In this document: positions 24,998 to 32,649 of the stretch, piece by piece
How positions within the stretch are numbered: position 1 is the first letter of the stretch
Layout of the letters: the number at the start of each line of letters is the position of its first letter
Source: Nodosilinea sp. FACHB-141
GTDB lineage: Bacteria; Cyanobacteriota; Cyanobacteriia; Phormidesmidales; Phormidesmidaceae
Length of the DNA: 64,000 nt
Direction of reading: 5' to 3'
Assembly: GCF_014696135.1 (NCBI RefSeq)
Contig: NZ_JACJPP010000011.1
Coordinates: 186,001-250,000 of the forward strand
The notes under the pieces: generated by a model
Told to the model about the DNA's origin: nothing
The model's database searches: none
Seen by the model: the letters and a program-made list of their open reading frames with translations, nothing else
Made by a program: the position numbers and the translations under genes

Positions 24998-26647
24998 CTA
25001 AAGTTCACAAGTCTTTGTGCGAGAGAAGAGAACCCCAAACCATCCACCACCAACCGACAAGAACAACCCACCCACAAAACCACACCCCGTGACGTGAGCC
25101 GGAAATTCTCCGGTGGGAGATAAAGAGGGATTTGCCTTTAGGTCGTCATAGTACACAAGAGGCTTGTCGTCTTTACGCCAGCCGATGCGATTACAGAACT
25201 CATCCCAAATCTTATCACCCGGATACTTGCCATCGAGTTTGGCCCCACATTCGATATAAATTTGCTTCTGTACACTAAAACCAAACTTGCCCTGGCTGTA
25301 CTTTACCCACAGGCGATCAATCGTGCGTAAATCCGTGCAGGGAAAATTCAGCAATTCATCGGTAGTGAACCAATTGTCAGTTTTTTTGCCCACAGTGCGA
25401 ATCATCGCTTCATAGGTTTCTTGGTCAGCATTTCTCCACTTTCCGGCTTTGAGTAGGTCGCGCAGGTGGGTGTAGTCAACCCCTTTTTCTGAGCTAAGAT
25501 CATCCTGGTACTCTTCCTCATAGCCATCTTGAAATCCATCTCGAAAGTTTTCCCATGCTCTCCTTAACCCGTTTTGAGGCTTAGGTTCTGGATTTTTTTG
25601 AGGAGTTACATTCTTCTCAGGCTGAGCTTTCTGCTCTTGTGGTGCAATTGCTTCTTGCTCACATCTCAATAATTCTTCTTCATAAGCAGCCTGAAATTCC
25701 TCGGAGGCATCCTGGAAACCTTCCTTAAAGCTTTGCCACACTCCTCTTAACCCTTTCTTGGGCTTGGTTTCCGAGTCTTTTTTAAGAGTTACATCTGCCT
25801 GAGAACCGGCCTCCCCCAATGCTACTTGCAGCGATTGCAAAGCCTCTGCCCCGTTAGCGTACCGGCGGCTATAGTGGCCGCACACCATCTTAGTCAGTAC
25901 CTCCGCTAGGGAATCGCTGACCTTTACCCCTTTCCGCCACACTACATCTAGCGTGTTGGGGTCGAGATCGAGATCATTTGGGTAGCGGCCTGTCAGTGCT
26001 TCTATGACTACCATGCCTAGGGCATAGACATCACTAGCGGGGTAGGGTTTCCCTCGGGCTTGCTCTAGAGGAGTATAGCCTTCGGTGCCAATGCTGACAG
26101 TAGTTGCAATTAACTTAGATGGAGGGTGAGCCATCTGCCCAAGTTGCTGGGCTGAAAATTCTTTCACAATGCCAAAGTCGATCAGGCACAGCACACCATC
26201 CTGACGGCGAATCAAGTTTTCGGGCTTAATGTCGCGGTGGATAACCCCCTGCTGATGTACATAACTGAGTACTTCCAACCCTTGGCGCAATAATGTAGTC
26301 ACATCCTGTTCGGGCAATCGCTTTGCGGCATGAAGTTCATCCCGCAGGGTGCGCCCTGCAATAAAATCCTGCACGATGTAGAGCTTGCCGTTTTCTTCCA
26401 GGTGTGCCAAAAGCAGCGGAATTTGGTCGTGGCGACCTAGGCGCTCCAGGATCTCAGCCTCTTGGTCAAACAGACGGCGGGCTACCTGCCATGTCTCGGC
26501 AGAAAACTTGCGCCGAGGCCGCAATTGTTTTACCACACAGCGGGGCTGACCAGGGCGGCGCAAGTCTTTGGCCAAAAAGGTGATGCCAAACCCGCCTTCG
26601 CTAAGGGCTTGGATGACTTCGTAGCGCCCGTCAATGATTTGGGGCAT
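24998..26647 (-). CDS. Ser/Thr protein kinase with C-terminal GUN4 domain
   Basis: A 549-residue fusion. The kinase domain (about 8-275) has GFGIT, K40, HRDIKPEN 137-144, DFG 157-159 and a Thr-rich activation loop. The GUN4 domain (about 391-530, YTHLRDLLKAGKWRNADQET onward) is the fold that in free GUN4 binds porphyrins and activates Mg-chelatase. The linker holds two related copies of an amphipathic motif, GLRGVWQSFKEGFQDA (299-314) and GLRRAWENFRDGFQDG (360-375). It is divergent from the CobA-HemD gene of tetrapyrrole synthesis, which may be meaningful or chance. The final 20 residues are glycine-rich. Confidence 0.9.
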   Translation of the reverse strand: MPQIIDGRYEVIQALSEGGFGITFLAKDLRRPGQPRCVVKQLRPRRKFSAETWQVARRLFDQEAEILERLGRHDQIPLLLAHLEENGKLYIVQDFIAGRTLRDELHAAKRLPEQDVTTLLRQGLEVLSYVHQQGVIHRDIKPENLIRRQDGVLCLIDFGIVKEFSAQQLGQMAHPPSKLIATTVSIGTEGYTPLEQARGKPYPASDVYALGMVVIEALTGRYPNDLDLDPNTLDVVWRKGVKVSDSLAEVLTKMVCGHYSRRYANGAEALQSLQVALGEAGSQADVTLKKDSETKPKKGLRGVWQSFKEGFQDASEEFQAAYEEELLRCEQEAIAPQEQKAQPEKNVTPQKNPEPKPQNGLRRAWENFRDGFQDGYEEEYQDDLSSEKGVDYTHLRDLLKAGKWRNADQETYEAMIRTVGKKTDNWFTTDELLNFPCTDLRTIDRLWVKYSQGKFGFSVQKQIYIECGAKLDGKYPGDKIWDEFCNRIGWRKDDKPLVYYDDLKANPSLSPTGEFPAHVTGCGFVGGLFLSVGGGWFGVLFSRTKTCEL

Positions 26648-26763: not shown

Positions 26764-26843
26764 AAATTTATGATTTGCTATTGGGCAATCAGGGGCCATC
26801 CAAGGGGCATGACTTACGAGGCGTGACGGTGTAACGTTTGATT

Positions 26844-28469
26844 ATGACTCAGCCGGGGACAGTGTATATCGTAGGAGCGGGGCCGGGGAGCCTCGACTAC
26901 CTCACCGTGCGGGGATACACCCTGCTCCAGCGGGCCGAGTGCCTGGTGTACGACGCTTTGCTGGATGAGGCGCTGCTGGCGCTGCTGCCGGAGGGGTGCG
27001 ATCGCATCAATGTTGGCAAACGCGGTGGCCAGCCTAGCACCGCCCAAACCGACATCAATCAACTCTTGGTCAAGCTGGCTCTAGAAGGGCGTCAGGTGGT
27101 ACGTCTTAAAAGCGGCGACCCCTTTATTTTTGGCCGCACCGCCGCCGAGGTGCAGGCTCTACGCGAGGCGGGCTGCCCGGTAGAAGTTGTGCCCGGCGTT
27201 TCGTCGGCTCTGGCGGCCCCGCTGCTGGCAGGTATTCCCCTCACCGACCCGGTGTGGAGCCACGGCTTTGGCGTCTTTACCGCCCACGATCTTGATCTGC
27301 TCGACTGGCCCACCCTGGCTCGCCTGCGCACTCTGGTGCTGCTCATGGGCAGTCGCCACCTCGAAGAAATTGTTCACCGTCTGCGCCAAAACGGCTGCCG
27401 AGGCGACATGCCGGTGGCCATTATTCGCTGGGGCGGCCACCCCCAGCAGCAGGTGTGGGAAGGCAGCCTGCTCACCATTTGCCAGGCAACTCGCGGCGAA
27501 ACCCTCTCCCCCTGTGTGACGGTGTTTGGGGAAGTTGTCCGCCTGCGTCCTTATCTGGCTTCGGGCAAGCAACCAACCCAAGATTCAAAATCCAAAATCC
27601 AACATTCTGGAGAGAGCCCTGGAGCGGTGCATTGCTTCGTGAATGCACCCTACGCATCCCATCACCCCATCACTCCCCTCCCTCTCACTCAAAAGACCAT
27701 CCTCATCACCCGCGCCGCCGAACAATCCAGCGCCTTTGCTGACTTGCTCATCACCCAGGGAGCTACGGTGATCGATCTCCCCGCACTGGAGATGCGATCG
27801 CCGTCGAGCTGGGCTGGGCTAGATGAAGTGATCGCTGCTCTTCCCACCTTCTCTTGGCTGATTCTCTCCTCGGCTAATGCGGTGAATTTCTTTGTGGATC
27901 GGCTGCTGGAGCAGGGGAAGGATCTGCGCGCCCTGAGTTCGCTCAAAATTGCCGTGGTGGGGCGTAAAACGGCGGCGGTGCTAAGACAACGGGGATTGGT
28001 ACCAGACTTTATTCCCCCCGACTTTGTTGCCGATTCCCTGGTCGGTCACTTTCCTGAAGCGGTGGCGGGGCAGCGGTTGCTATTTCCCCGGGTAGAAAGC
28101 GGCGGTCGGGAAGTGCTGGTGCAGGAGTTCACCGCCGCCGGGGCCGAGGTGGTGGAAGTGGCGGCCTACGAATCGGGCTGTCCAGAGTTCGCCGACCCAA
28201 ACGCCTTGACAGCCCTGAAAAGTGGCAATGTGGATGTGATCACCTTTGCCAGTTCGAAAACCGTGGTGCATACGGCTCAGCTTTTGGAACAGGGTTTAGG
28301 TGCGGACTGGCGCGAGGTGCTGAAGGGGGTGGCGATCGCCTCCATTGGCCCCAAAACCTCAGACAGCTGCCGCGAGCTTCTAGGCCGGGTGGATATTGAG
28401 CCAGCGGAATATACCTTAGATGGACTGACGGAGGCGATTGTCACATGGGCCAGCGCATTATCGGCCTAA
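26844..28469 (+). CDS. cobA-hemD: Uroporphyrinogen-III C-methyltransferase / uroporphyrinogen-III synthase fusion
   Basis: A 541-residue bifunctional tetrapyrrole enzyme. Residues about 1-240 are SUMT (VYIVGAGPGSLDYLTVRG, VVRLKSGDPFIFGR, PVEVVPGVSSALAAPLLAGI), which adds two methyls to uroporphyrinogen III to make precorrin-2. Residues about 285-540 are HemD, which closes hydroxymethylbilane to uroporphyrinogen III. The linker (about 245-282) is encoded by low-complexity DNA that includes TTCAAAATCCAAAATCCAA, a cyanobacterial heptamer-type repeat. ATG 26844 is used; a TTG lies two codons upstream. coaE overlaps its 3' end by 25 nt, indicating cotranscription. Confidence 0.93.
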   Translation: MTQPGTVYIVGAGPGSLDYLTVRGYTLLQRAECLVYDALLDEALLALLPEGCDRINVGKRGGQPSTAQTDINQLLVKLALEGRQVVRLKSGDPFIFGRTAAEVQALREAGCPVEVVPGVSSALAAPLLAGIPLTDPVWSHGFGVFTAHDLDLLDWPTLARLRTLVLLMGSRHLEEIVHRLRQNGCRGDMPVAIIRWGGHPQQQVWEGSLLTICQATRGETLSPCVTVFGEVVRLRPYLASGKQPTQDSKSKIQHSGESPGAVHCFVNAPYASHHPITPLPLTQKTILITRAAEQSSAFADLLITQGATVIDLPALEMRSPSSWAGLDEVIAALPTFSWLILSSANAVNFFVDRLLEQGKDLRALSSLKIAVVGRKTAAVLRQRGLVPDFIPPDFVADSLVGHFPEAVAGQRLLFPRVESGGREVLVQEFTAAGAEVVEVAAYESGCPEFADPNALTALKSGNVDVITFASSKTVVHTAQLLEQGLGADWREVLKGVAIASIGPKTSDSCRELLGRVDIEPAEYTLDGLTEAIVTWASALSA

Positions 28470-29053
28470 CCGGGGGCATTGCCACCGGCAAATCAACCGT
28501 ATCCGAGTACCTGGCGCGAGTACACCACCTGCCCGTGCTGGATGCCGATATCTACGCTCGTCAGGCCGTGGAGCCGGGGTCGGCGGTGTTGGGGGCGATC
28601 GCCAATCGCTACGGAGCATCTCTGCTTCACCCCGACGGCACCCTGAACCGGGGAGCGCTGGGGGAAATCGTCTTTAACCAACCCGCCGAAAAAGCCTGGC
28701 TAGAGCAGCAGATTCACCCGGTGGTACGCCAGCGTTTCGGGGAGGCGATGGCTGAGCTGGCCGAGGCTCCCGTCGTGGTGCAAGTCATCCCACTTTTGTT
28801 TGAGGCCAACCTAGCTGATCAGGTGAGCGAAATTTGGGTGGTGACCTGTCCCTTTGATCGCCAACGTCAGCGCCTCATGGAACGCAATGGTTTGACTGCC
28901 GAGCAGGCCACCGCCCGCATTCAAAGCCAGATGCCCTTGGCAGACAAAGTGGCCTTGGCGGATGTGGTGATCGACAACTCCGCCGACTTGGCCGCCCTAT
29001 CCCGTCGGGTGGATGAGGCGTTGCAGCACACCCCCGAGGGCTTCCGGCGCTAG
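28445..29053 (+). CDS. coaE: Dephospho-CoA kinase
   Basis: Catalyses the last step of coenzyme A synthesis, ATP-dependent phosphorylation of the 3'-hydroxyl. The 202-residue protein has P-loop GLTGGIATGKST, the substrate block LDADIYARQAVEPGS, IHPVVRQRF, PLLFEANL and a lid RLMERNGLTAEQATARIQSQMP. It starts inside the hemD end (25-nt overlap). The last 57 nt overlap antisense with the 3' end of the methyltransferase-like gene. Confidence 0.95.
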   Translation: MGQRIIGLTGGIATGKSTVSEYLARVHHLPVLDADIYARQAVEPGSAVLGAIANRYGASLLHPDGTLNRGALGEIVFNQPAEKAWLEQQIHPVVRQRFGEAMAELAEAPVVVQVIPLLFEANLADQVSEIWVVTCPFDRQRQRLMERNGLTAEQATARIQSQMPLADKVALADVVIDNSADLAALSRRVDEALQHTPEGFRR

Positions 29054-31075
29054 GGCCGTATTGGGCTTAGAAAAAGCGGCATAGGGGCTGCCCTGGGTTG
29101 GTCCCTGATGCCGCAGCCACAGTGCACAGAGCGTTGTACGAGAGGGGATGTCGGGCCAGAGCTTTTGGTGATTTGACAGGTCGAGCACGGTAGCCAGATC
29201 GGTTTGGCGCTGTAGCCAGTGGCGCAGGGGGGCACTGTTGCTCTGGGCCCAAAAGGGGTCGAGTAACACCCCGCAGCGACCGCCGGGCCGCAAGAGTTGC
29301 AAGCTGCGTTCTAGAAATAACCGAGACCAAAAAAGCCGATTCTGGCTCAGGCCGTCAGGCCCTAAGCTGCTGTGGGGATATTGGTCAGAGCGGCGCAGGT
29401 AGTTACTCAGCCAGGTGAACTGGCCCCGGTACTCGGCCCAGGCTTGGGTGAGGTCGTGGTCGATGGTCAGCACCGGTTGGCGGTTGTGCCGAAAGGTAGA
29501 GGGAGTCACGTTTTTTTGCTCAAACAGAGTGGCATAGCGTTCCACAAAGCCCACCTGGGTCGCCTCCACGGCCCCGCGGGGAAAGTGGCTAAGCACGATG
29601 TCAAAGCCGCCTTGGTCACGCCGCTGCTGGTGAAAATAGAACCCCCAATGGAAGGGCTGGGTGGCATCGACATCCGTTTGGTTTAGGGGGCGAGTGGGGC
29701 GATCGCCCGTCGGATCGGGCACCCTCAGGCCCAGCTGCTGGCTGCCCTCGCTCCACAGCAAGTGGGTGAGCTTGCCCTGGGCAATGGCGTCGAGTTCGTC
29801 GAGGCGATCGCGCAAAAAGTCGGCCTGGGCGTAGGCGGGCACGCTGCCCACTTCGGCCAGCAGCTGGGTCTGGCTGCGGTAGTGCTCTAGGCGCACCTGG
29901 CGCTCACCCAGCACAGACTGGTAGCTGTCAGCAATCAATGGTTGGAGCAGATTCCCCTGGAGCGGGACGGCTTGTTCTGGATCTTTGGCCCCGCGCCGGG
30001 GCGGCACCTGATCGAATCGTTCGTCATCAACGCGCACTAGACCGACCAGAGCGTTGCCCTGGAGCACGGTTAGGGTTAGGTCAGGCAATGCGGTGAGTTC
30101 TGTCGGTTGGCTGGTGTGCTGCACGCCCTGGAGCCACAACTGTAGCCGAGCGAGCTCTACCGCTGGAGGCCACAGGTCGAGGCCGTAGAGGGCGTGGGTG
30201 GCCAGGTGTTGGTAGAGGCCTAGGGTAGGGTTGTTGGGGGATGGTTTGGCCCAGTTGGGAATAGTTTTGGCAGAATTTTGGGTGGCGATCGCCCGCAATC
30301 CTAGGGCCAATTCCATCAGCTGATTGAGCGCCGCCACGAGAAAGCGCCCTGAACCACAGGCGGGGTCGAGCAGGGTGAGCTGTCCTAGCTCGGTCAACAG
30401 CGTTCCGGCCTCGGCGGGGGAAAGCTCCTTTAGAAGCTGTTCGGTGGAGCGATAGCGGTGGTTGGTGAGCGCCTCGGCGCGGTCGAGTAGGGTGGCGTGG
30501 ATGGTGCGATCGCACAGCGCCCCCAGCAGTGGTGCTGGCGTCGCCATGGCGACCCCGTCATAGCCATTGACCGCCTGCTCTAGCAGCATGCCCAAGCCCG
30601 CGTCTAGCCCAGCAGGAGCCGCCGCTGCCAGGTCGGCTAGCCAGTGGAGGGTGGGCTCAAAGGCAGCGTCGGGCAGGGGAACGTGACCCCAGCGCTGGTC
30701 TAACTCTGTGAATCGAAACGGCCCTGTGGGCACAAAGGGCAGTGGCCCTAGCCGCTGGCGCAAAGCTGGGGGGCGCTCCTCGGCGGGCAGGGTAAACCCC
30801 TGCTGGCAAAGCGGCTGTAGCACCTGTGAGAAGAACCCATCTAGCTCGCGCTGCTGGCTCTGGCCAAACTGATTGTGTAGATACCACTCGTCACCGCCCA
30901 AGTAGCCCCGCTGTTGCAGGGCCGCCACGGCAATCAGCCGCGTGAGCAGCAGCGTGGCGTAGTGGCGGCGTTGACTGCCGGGTAAGGACACCAGGGCGTC
31001 GGTCAACGTCTGCCAGCTCCGCTGAAAGCCTTGCACTAGGGTGGGGGTGGGGGGCTGCTCTACCGTAAGGCCCAT
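28997..31075 (-). CDS. Eco57I/type IIG-like DNA adenine methyltransferase homologue with degenerate motif IV
   Basis: A 692-residue protein related to the methylase part of Eco57I-type restriction-modification enzymes. SAM-binding motif I is intact (LTLLDPACGSGRFLVAALNQ). Motif IV, normally NPPY/F after a hydrophobic strand, reads FDIVLSHFPRGA, so the base-flipping Asn-Pro-Pro triad is gone. The region RPGGRCGVLLDPFWAQSNSA resembles motif VI. No nuclease motif was found and no target-recognition domain is recognisable. The last 19 residues are encoded antisense to coaE, suggesting 3' truncation. ATG 31073-31075 was chosen, 5 bp after the stop of the SRPBCC gene. It is likely catalytically inactive, or has another role. 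Confidence 0.72.
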   Translation of the reverse strand: MGLTVEQPPTPTLVQGFQRSWQTLTDALVSLPGSQRRHYATLLLTRLIAVAALQQRGYLGGDEWYLHNQFGQSQQRELDGFFSQVLQPLCQQGFTLPAEERPPALRQRLGPLPFVPTGPFRFTELDQRWGHVPLPDAAFEPTLHWLADLAAAAPAGLDAGLGMLLEQAVNGYDGVAMATPAPLLGALCDRTIHATLLDRAEALTNHRYRSTEQLLKELSPAEAGTLLTELGQLTLLDPACGSGRFLVAALNQLMELALGLRAIATQNSAKTIPNWAKPSPNNPTLGLYQHLATHALYGLDLWPPAVELARLQLWLQGVQHTSQPTELTALPDLTLTVLQGNALVGLVRVDDERFDQVPPRRGAKDPEQAVPLQGNLLQPLIADSYQSVLGERQVRLEHYRSQTQLLAEVGSVPAYAQADFLRDRLDELDAIAQGKLTHLLWSEGSQQLGLRVPDPTGDRPTRPLNQTDVDATQPFHWGFYFHQQRRDQGGFDIVLSHFPRGAVEATQVGFVERYATLFEQKNVTPSTFRHNRQPVLTIDHDLTQAWAEYRGQFTWLSNYLRRSDQYPHSSLGPDGLSQNRLFWSRLFLERSLQLLRPGGRCGVLLDPFWAQSNSAPLRHWLQRQTDLATVLDLSNHQKLWPDIPSRTTLCALWLRHQGPTQGSPYAAFSKPNTALAPEALGGVLQRLIHPTG

Positions 31076-31080
31076 GGTGC

Positions 31081-31533
31081 CTAGGGGGAAGGAGATTGTT
31101 TGGCCGCCATGGCGTAGTCGCGAAAGCGGTTGAGGTCGTCTTGCAGCGTAGCTTCGACCAACCGACCGAGGAACAGCCCGTCCATCCACTTGATGACGCC
31201 AGGCACCGAGTAAGACACGGTGAGCTTGACGGTTGACTGACCCTCCTTACGATCGTAAAAGCGAATGGCCCCCCGATTGGGCAGCCCGTCAATCGCTTCC
31301 CACTGAATAATCTGGTGGGTGACCAGGTTGGTGATCTTAGAGCGCCAGGTAAACTCAAACCCGCGGGAGGCCAGCTTCCACTCTGAAATTTCGGGATCGG
31401 CATCGGAGACTTTGACAGAGTCGATCCACTTCATCCAGCGGGGCATCTGCTCCAGGTCAGACCACAGATTCCAGGACGTTTCTACCGGCACATCGACATC
31501 TACCGCTACGCTGTGATCGAGCCATTCACCCAT
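31081..31533 (-). CDS. SRPBCC family protein (polyketide cyclase/START-like)
   Basis: A 150-residue START-fold protein. The N-terminal pattern VDVDVPVETSWNLWSDLEQMPRWMKWIDSV is the typical opening of the cyclase/dehydrase subfamily, which in cyanobacteria and plastids binds hydrophobic ligands. The C-terminus (LGRLVEATLQDDLNRFRDY) is the usual amphipathic helix. Its stop is 5 bp from the start of the methyltransferase-like gene, so they probably share a transcript, though a functional link is not evident. The ligand is unknown. Confidence 0.87.
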   Translation of the reverse strand: MGEWLDHSVAVDVDVPVETSWNLWSDLEQMPRWMKWIDSVKVSDADPEISEWKLASRGFEFTWRSKITNLVTHQIIQWEAIDGLPNRGAIRFYDRKEGQSTVKLTVSYSVPGVIKWMDGLFLGRLVEATLQDDLNRFRDYAMAAKQSPSP

Positions 31534-31701: not shown

Positions 31702-32649
31702 CTACATCCCCTTGCGCGCTACTAAGGTGCGGTGGCGGGGGTCGCTGGGCACTGTGATAGGTGGCTCAAAGCCAGCCTCAACCAGAGCTGCTTCTAAATC
31801 AAAGGTGTAGTAGTCGTCGCTCCAGGGTTCGGTGCTTTTCATCAGCGTAAACAGCACCGGAGGCAGGGCTTGGATCACGGGCGACTTGGGGTTGTTGTCG
31901 ACAATGGCCAGGACTCCGCCGGGCCGCAGCACTCGCCGGGCTTCGTCAAATATGGCTTGGGTAGCGGCGCGGGGCAGTTCGTGGGCAACAAACTGCATCG
32001 TCACCACATCAAACGACGCAGCGGGGAAGCCGGTAGCTTCTGCTGCCCCATGTACCCATTGAGCAATTTCACGGTTGGTATCTTGGGATTGAGCCACCAC
32101 TAGCATGTAGGGCGACAGGTCAAGGCCCACGGTGCGCACCGGATTTCTCTGGGCGTAGTGGCGGTGCAGGCTGAGGGTAGAAATGCCCACCGAGCAGCCC
32201 ACATCCAAAATGTCTGTTACCTCGGCTGGGCCATGCTGGTCGAGCACTTCAAGAAAGCTGTGGCGCAGCCGGGCTTGGGCTGTCTGCCAGGACAACTCTT
32301 CCTGAGGCCAAACCCGCAGGGCCATGGCGTAGGTGGCGGGGGCGGCCTCAAAGGCGGCTTGCCAGCAAAGGTTGCCCTCGCTGTAGGCGTGGAAGGGCAC
32401 CTGGTAATAGTCGGGGTAGACTACCGCTGGATTGGTTAACTCATCCAATCGCTGGCGCATTTCGGGAGTGTCGAGATCGAGGCAGGTTTGTCGCCAGGGA
32501 ACGCCATTTTTCTCGGCGGTTTTGATTAGCACCTGGCGGGCCTGGCGCTTCATCAGGGCGTAGAGAGCGGGAGTTTGAATGGCGCGGTTGACGATCCGCG
32601 AGAGCAGATCGTTGCCGGCCCAGTCGGGCTTGAGTTTGGTCGTGGTCAT
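31702..32649 (-). CDS. Class I SAM-dependent methyltransferase
   Basis: A 315-residue cytosolic methyltransferase with an N-terminal helical extension (about 1-140) and a Rossmann core. Motif I is DILDVGCSVGISTLSL, the acidic loop is VGLDLSPYMLVVAQ, and motif II/III regions are SFDVVTMQFVAHELP and ARRVLRPGGVLAIVDNN. The post-core ends MKSTEPWSDDYYTF as in UbiE/COQ5-like cyanobacterial proteins. The substrate is unknown. The 168-bp gap between this gene's stop and the SRPBCC start holds nothing recognisable. Confidence 0.87.
   Translation of the reverse strand: MTTTKLKPDWAGNDLLSRIVNRAIQTPALYALMKRQARQVLIKTAEKNGVPWRQTCLDLDTPEMRQRLDELTNPAVVYPDYYQVPFHAYSEGNLCWQAAFEAAPATYAMALRVWPQEELSWQTAQARLRHSFLEVLDQHGPAEVTDILDVGCSVGISTLSLHRHYAQRNPVRTVGLDLSPYMLVVAQSQDTNREIAQWVHGAAEATGFPAASFDVVTMQFVAHELPRAATQAIFDEARRVLRPGGVLAIVDNNPKSPVIQALPPVLFTLMKSTEPWSDDYYTFDLEAALVEAGFEPPITVPSDPRHRTLVARKGM

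Follow-up and report, generated by a model that had tools for sequence, protein, structure and literature searches.

What is a methylase that keeps its SAM motifs and has lost its catalytic site? The question is raised by a 692-residue frame in the window, i.e. the whole stretch of 64,000 nucleotides of Nodosilinea sp. FACHB-141 analysed here, whose product (hereafter the window protein) has the core of an Eco57I/MmeI-type adenine methylase and no NPPY/F motif.

The methylase core and its altered motif IV

The frame runs on the minus strand from a methionine codon at 31075 to a stop ending at 28997 (28997..31075); the plus strand over the same interval is closed by many stops. Its MGLTV start, common to the near orthologues, lies 5 bp after the stop of an SRPBCC gene. 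Pfam profiles identify the core: MmeI_Mtase matches at 4.8e-9 with 36.2 bits (cut-off 27) and Eco57I at 1.6e-6 with 28.7 bits (cut-off 25.3). The gene is single-copy in its own genome, the sole further match being a short stretch of a separate 944-aa frame. An initial annotation had described an uninterrupted frame of 692 residues with an intact SAM motif I, and both descriptions hold. Motif I, DPACGSGRF (residues 237-245; 30341..30367, minus strand), was located by sequence and alignment, and D237, G241 and G243 are conserved in 56/56 rows of the cyanobacterial family that have a residue there. Apart from I and IV, the motifs are named by convention. Motif II, YGLDLW (residues 297-302; 30170..30187, minus strand), supplies the acidic D300, a position that is D or E in all 56 family rows having a residue, and motif III, GNALVG (residues 340-345; 30041..30058, minus strand), keeps G340, L343 and G345 in 57/57 rows. 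The protein has the Rossmann-like class I methyltransferase fold with motifs I, II and III, in a model of middling confidence.

The motif IV site, SHFPRG (residues 496-501; 29573..29590, minus strand), places H497 at the position of the catalytic Asn. The annotation had SHFP standing in for NPPY/F: the motif is indeed absent and SHFP does occupy residues 496-499, and the alignment shifts the register by one residue. The catalytic site of long relatives, [TAG]-N-P-P-[WY], aligns with S-H-F-P-R, so that S496 matches the residue preceding the Asn and the NPPW of active-type relatives corresponds to H497-F498-P499-R500. H497 therefore replaces the Asn, F498 the first Pro and R500 the Trp, while P499 is unchanged in 57/57 family rows. 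A true NPPY hidden elsewhere would have undone this reading; at the sequence level none of NPP, DPP or SPP occurs anywhere in the 692 residues. A motif-X-like region, VAMATPAPLLGALCDR (30506..30553, minus strand; sequence and alignment), is likewise degenerate.

An AlphaFold model built with 19 sequences has a mean pLDDT of 66.1 and a pTM of 0.53; residues 469-500, which hold motif IV, fall below a pLDDT of 50, nor can most of the last 70-100 residues at the C-terminus be relied on. A two-helix hairpin (residues 377-447; 29735..29947, minus strand) is predicted to separate motif III from motif IV. In the VIA-align ranking the type IIL restriction-modification enzyme MmeI (PDB 5hr4) comes first as the nearest solved fold (Z 17.2 over 289 residues, 4.8 A), followed by CamA (Z 13) and PglX (Z 12), while Foldseek returns PglX at 9.0e-6 and MmeI at 3.9e-4. 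MmeI itself works as an active enzyme, combining nuclease activity with target recognition. The sole match in a sequence search of the PDB was a type I M protein (E 3.4e-4). The model supports a helical-plus-methylase architecture and gives nothing certain around H497.

The loss of the Asn is old and family-wide: it is missing in 56/57 aligned family rows as against 1/18 rows of the long type IIG-like relatives (17 genes, L106 and L127 being one gene). Within the window's genus, 25/25 aligned rows show SH[FLV]P and the H is fixed, so that this copy is no recent mutant; a recent mutation or a sequencing error is ruled out by these two counts. The alignment leaves out fragmentary or frame-broken loci (L002, L021, L027, L049, L050, L051, L062, L063), the distant L064-L066 and near-duplicates. 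Across the 57 family rows residue 497 is H in 30, R in 10, A in 7, Q in 5 and N, S, D, L or V in one each, i.e. nine kinds of residue, and position 500 is equally free. Fixation thus concerns the SAM motifs, whereas the residue at the catalytic position changes from lineage to lineage. The family also has near-invariant residues of its own that differ in the long relatives: W64 (53/53), W145 (54/54), E397 (57/57), P413 (57/57) and G501 (52/57).

Pairwise Nei-Gojobori estimates, made with our own script, give a dN/dS of 0.05-0.20 for the window gene against 15 members of its genus and of 0.05-0.29 for all genus pairs with dS < 1, as compared to 0.12-0.19 for coaE, 0.09-0.17 for the hemD fusion and 0.03-0.06 for the SRPBCC gene. 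This range points to maintenance by selection and rules out decay; together with the age of the Asn loss and the near-invariant SAM motifs it bears out the earlier remark that the gene is not simply decaying. The altered site is more than a chance observation because it is conserved family-wide under purifying selection.

Long relatives and the descent of the family

The long relatives, 1058-1414 aa when uncut by contig ends, carry NPP[WY] and occur sporadically outside the family. Two that were tested reach 510-518 bits (E 1e-153 or below) on the PADLOC type IIG model PDLC03628, as opposed to only 46 bits for the window protein. Each of three checked lies beside a large SNF2-type helicase matching an HKD+Snf2 model (best PADLOC model C3a139), with Pfam PLDc_2 and SNF2 domains in the one helicase scanned, a defence-like arrangement. 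The window protein shares with the PDLC03628 proteins a homologous helical domain and a methylase core of about 30% identity with motifs I-III conserved, whereas they have NPP[WY], YYT at the motif-X-like site and some 310 further residues at the C-terminus, all of which it lacks. The YYT (positions 177-179) is present in 17/18 rows of the long relatives and lost in the cyanobacterial family. The match to one long relative, L057 (1265 aa), extends as far as residue 951 of the latter, at which point 28 residues of the window protein remain. Set against the plan of a type IIG enzyme, the protein has SAM motif I (DPACGSGRF) and, at the site of the catalytic NPP[YFW], HFPR; it has neither a target-recognition domain after the methylase domain, the C-terminal region of about 310 residues of L057 being missing, nor an endonuclease domain at the N-terminus of the same chain, since the relatives' N-terminal domain, a putative nuclease, is absent. 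In another long NPPW relative (L061:5160-9431, plus strand) motif I is separated from the remainder of the methylase domain by a DUF559 domain (residues 561-665), possibly an intein-like or homing insertion.

PglX/BrxX of BREX belongs to the same methylase superfamily (Foldseek 9.0e-6), and the window protein scores 35.2 bits on the NCBIfam BREX_x_MTaseX model for BREX-6 (cut-off 900), 28.2 for BREX-1 (500) and 24 for BREX-2 (400). An identity as BREX PglX is ruled out by scores so far under the cut-offs. According to a study of BrxX, this protein keeps NPPY, shares motif IV with MmeI and has a TRD and a CTD; the flipped adenine is held in place by the tyrosine of NPPY, mutation of which disrupted binding to DNA (PMC11842806).

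The gene is present in 59/61 genomes of the window's cyanobacterial family, 57 of them found by search and two more at contig ends (L162, L163); named members among the matches include Nodosilinea, Phormidium tenue FACHB-1052, Tildeniella torsiva and Shackletoniella antarctica. The two genomes without it (G013, G234) are also without the SRPBCC gene, for which an assembly gap may be the cause. The methylase frame is interrupted in 2/57 genomes (G024, G384). Outside the family 29/328 genomes of the class match at a threshold of 1e-30. Motif IV is readable in 27 of these, the fetched match in G204 and G289 stopping short of the site, and 26 have NPP[WY]. The exception, L060 (6069-7817, minus strand; genome G049, of another family), is a degenerate relative of 582 aa with THSPN at motif IV, without a target-recognition domain and with no SRPBCC gene found; it would seem to have decayed independently from that type of long enzyme. 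A search of viral contigs gave nine pattern matches, none of them confirmed as a viral relative.

A tree of 73 rows, from which the motif IV columns were excluded and L112 and L116 additionally omitted, separates the family from the long relatives by a single branch (SH-aLRT 98). When rooted on three distant NPP[WYF] proteins (L064-L066, with eleven rows omitted), the long NPPW forms are the earliest branches, L060 follows, and the family comes last, L056 lying close to the base of the latter; the outgroup does not form one group, and the long L065 falls inside the family, an unreliable placement. The rooted tree suggests that the family derives from an NPPW ancestor, with the proviso that the outgroup did not group cleanly. 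L056 is a partial family row of 491 aa that keeps TNPPW and ends where the short family proteins end. It fits, tentatively, a loss of the target-recognition domain before that of the Asn, being one fragment from an assembly of 1840 contigs.

Several family members (e.g. L017-L020, L024, L025, L028, L030, L031 and L108-L111) still have the long relatives' N-terminal domain, which is missing in the window's branch, where the MGLTV start runs almost directly into the helical domain. Within one genus some members (L019, L025, also L020 and L024) carry this domain, which measures about 150 aa, and from others, including the window protein, it is cleanly gone; several retain MGLTV or MGLSV as their first residues.

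The SRPBCC gene and the wider neighbourhood

Directly upstream on the same strand lies a gene for an SRPBCC (polyketide-cyclase/dehydrase-like) protein (31081..31533), whose stop precedes the methylase ATG by 5 bp. The SRPBCC fold usually binds hydrophobic ligands. An SRPBCC gene precedes the methylase in 51/51 family genomes having upstream sequence. It was found directly upstream on the same strand in 47/57, with no upstream sequence in eight; it also stands before the interrupted frame in G024 and G384, and two more genomes have the pair adjacent at contig ends. The gap, counted from the last aligned SRPBCC codon, ranges from -16 to 246 bp and is <=71 bp in 45/47. None of the loci of the long relatives has an SRPBCC gene.

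In the other genera of the family crtQ (zeta-carotene desaturase) precedes the SRPBCC gene in 7/7 tested (872-908 bits, cut-off 622); G027, also of another genus, has no crtQ and has a short-chain dehydrogenase before SRPBCC. Since crtQ and SRPBCC are adjacent without the methylase in 7/12 other cyanobacteria, the methylase seems a newcomer to an older pair. In the window's genus neither crtQ nor crtP exceeds the cut-off in any of 15 genomes (two weak matches, 114-117 bits). All seven genomes of the genus that were tested contain a CrtI-family desaturase scoring about 431-444 bits (e.g. G000:C11:752359-753654). The carotenoid desaturation route has apparently been replaced in this genus, and G027 looks alike. 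Because the SRPBCC-methylase pair outlived crtQ, the methylase would be tied to SRPBCC and not to zeta-carotene desaturation.

The 3' end of the methylase gene overlaps by 57 bp, tail to tail, with coaE (dephospho-CoA kinase; 28445..29053, plus strand), next to which a tetrapyrrole methylase/HemD fusion (26838..28469, plus strand) is conserved throughout the genus. A class I methyltransferase gene (31702..32649, minus strand) lies upstream of SRPBCC; only some members of the genus have it there. In two small-genome cyanobacteria (L146, L147) hemD faces SRPBCC-crtQ as hemD-coaE faces SRPBCC-methylase in the window, and this hemD-facing neighbourhood may be old. The window also encodes a Ser/Thr protein kinase fused to a GUN4 domain (24998-26647, minus strand).

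Candidate roles and their implications

The evolutionary part of the account, i.e. descent, losses, conservation, selection and linkage, is well supported, and from it we infer the molecular job of the window protein: SAM binding, a lack of catalysis, co-expression, and a physical or functional pairing with SRPBCC. The explanation to which we give an even chance is that crtQ-SRPBCC gained, on its downstream side, a restriction enzyme of the type IIG-like class, which was exapted: its role would now be that of a SAM-binding pseudo-methyltransferase working as the partner of the SRPBCC protein. On this account an ancestor of the cyanobacterial family captured a long restriction-methylase beside the gene pair. 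Target recognition and the catalytic Asn would have disappeared, together with, for the most part, the motif IV aromatic and the motif-X-like stretch; the window's lineage would also have shed the N-terminal domain. The helical domain and the SAM motifs would have survived in the family as a whole. The present protein, probably co-expressed with SRPBCC, would act as a SAM-binding scaffold or sensor and be dead as an adenine methylase; SAM occupancy may shape the domain, and the SAM-bound state would most likely tune the action of the SRPBCC protein. In BrxX, bound SAM contributes to the organisation of the methylase domain (PMC11842806). The annotation had offered a repurposed SAM-binding or DNA-binding protein, of which the SAM-binding half gains support from the old Asn loss, the near-invariant SAM motifs and the low dN/dS, binding itself being predicted from these.

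A comparison is offered by METTL14, the pseudo-methyltransferase of the m6A writer, which has a broken motif IV (EPPL), is kept as a non-catalytic platform, cannot accommodate the methyl donor in its pocket and pairs with an active sister (PMC6112310). Both are methylase folds with a ruined motif IV, whereas the window protein keeps its SAM motifs and has no active DNA methylase linked to it. Because this combination, SAM motifs kept and motif IV ruined, is the opposite of METTL14, a SAM-binding, non-catalytic partner of SRPBCC is favoured. Counting against such a partner are the middling AlphaFold model, with its low confidence around motif IV, and the variability at 497, where no single replacement is fixed family-wide; L056 keeps NPPW, adjacency is no proof of partnership, and the frames of G024 and G384 are interrupted.

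The main rival, unlikely though to be taken seriously, is that the protein is still a methyltransferase acting on another substrate (a small molecule, lipid or protein), with a SAM pocket that is catalytic without the NPPY Asn and an SRPBCC protein that delivers or binds a hydrophobic substrate. Complete motifs I, II and III, the upstream SRPBCC partner and the strong purifying selection would all suit it, but with nine residues at 497 and position 500 equally free there is no conserved new catalytic residue at the site. A non-catalytic DNA- or RNA-binding regulator working through the remaining helical and methylase domains appears less probable again: its fold would be MmeI- and PglX-like, and core charge is equal to that of the long relatives (median pI 6.27 in the family and 5.96 in the relatives, a comparison showing no difference and bearing neither way on a loss of DNA binding), yet the target-recognition region, about 310 residues in L057, is missing.

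The remaining readings are much less probable. That the protein belongs to a defence system which lost its modification part, as the annotation had also proposed, would agree with the PADLOC type IIG assignment of the two long relatives tested and with the SNF2/PLD helicases adjoining the three that were checked, but we regard it as very improbable for a vertically kept core gene of one family, with no defence gene seen travelling along and a fixed housekeeping neighbourhood between SRPBCC/crtQ and, in the window's genus, coaE/hemD. That the protein is still active as an adenine DNA methylase, with HFPR as an unusual form of motif IV, has a slightly smaller chance still: motif I is intact, but the Asn, the first Pro, the aromatic, the motif-X-like stretch and the target-recognition domain are all changed or absent. 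Judging from the loss of the Asn, the aromatic, the motif-X-like stretch and the target-recognition domain, catalysis has probably been lost. The least credible reading is a slowly decaying, functionless relic, to which the broken frames in 2/57 genomes could be referred; the selection estimate (every pair shown has a dN/dS of 0.05-0.29), the retention across the family and the family-specific near-invariant residues contradict it.

Pseudo-enzymes and domesticated defence genes are a known kind; the present instance and its SRPBCC/crtQ setting were not found in the literature searched. Searches on SRPBCC with zeta-carotene desaturase, restriction-modification exaptation, Nodosilinea and NPPY pseudoenzymes returned, among titles and abstract openings, no title on the family, and nothing was found for the gene tag slr0941. 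Restriction enzymes are usually gained and lost quickly. In this case a single lineage shed whatever acts on DNA and is now found in nearly all examined genomes of a cyanobacterial family, invariably following the small SRPBCC gene. The before-and-after series, comprising long NPPW forms, one TRD-less NPPW form, N-terminally complete pseudo-forms and short pseudo-forms, is useful for studying the conversion of a defence enzyme into something else, and its end product is a mirror image of METTL14, with the SAM motifs kept and the catalytic site lost. For annotation, matches to Eco57I/MmeI methylases in these cyanobacteria need not mean restriction systems. More speculatively, and with a likelihood no greater than that of the main rival, the captured and stripped defence enzyme may now be a family-fixed SAM sensor that couples methyl-donor status to an SRPBCC-borne lipid/isoprenoid or pigment function. 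If true, this would be an exaptation from defence to metabolism, in which the cofactor pocket, and not catalysis, was worth keeping.
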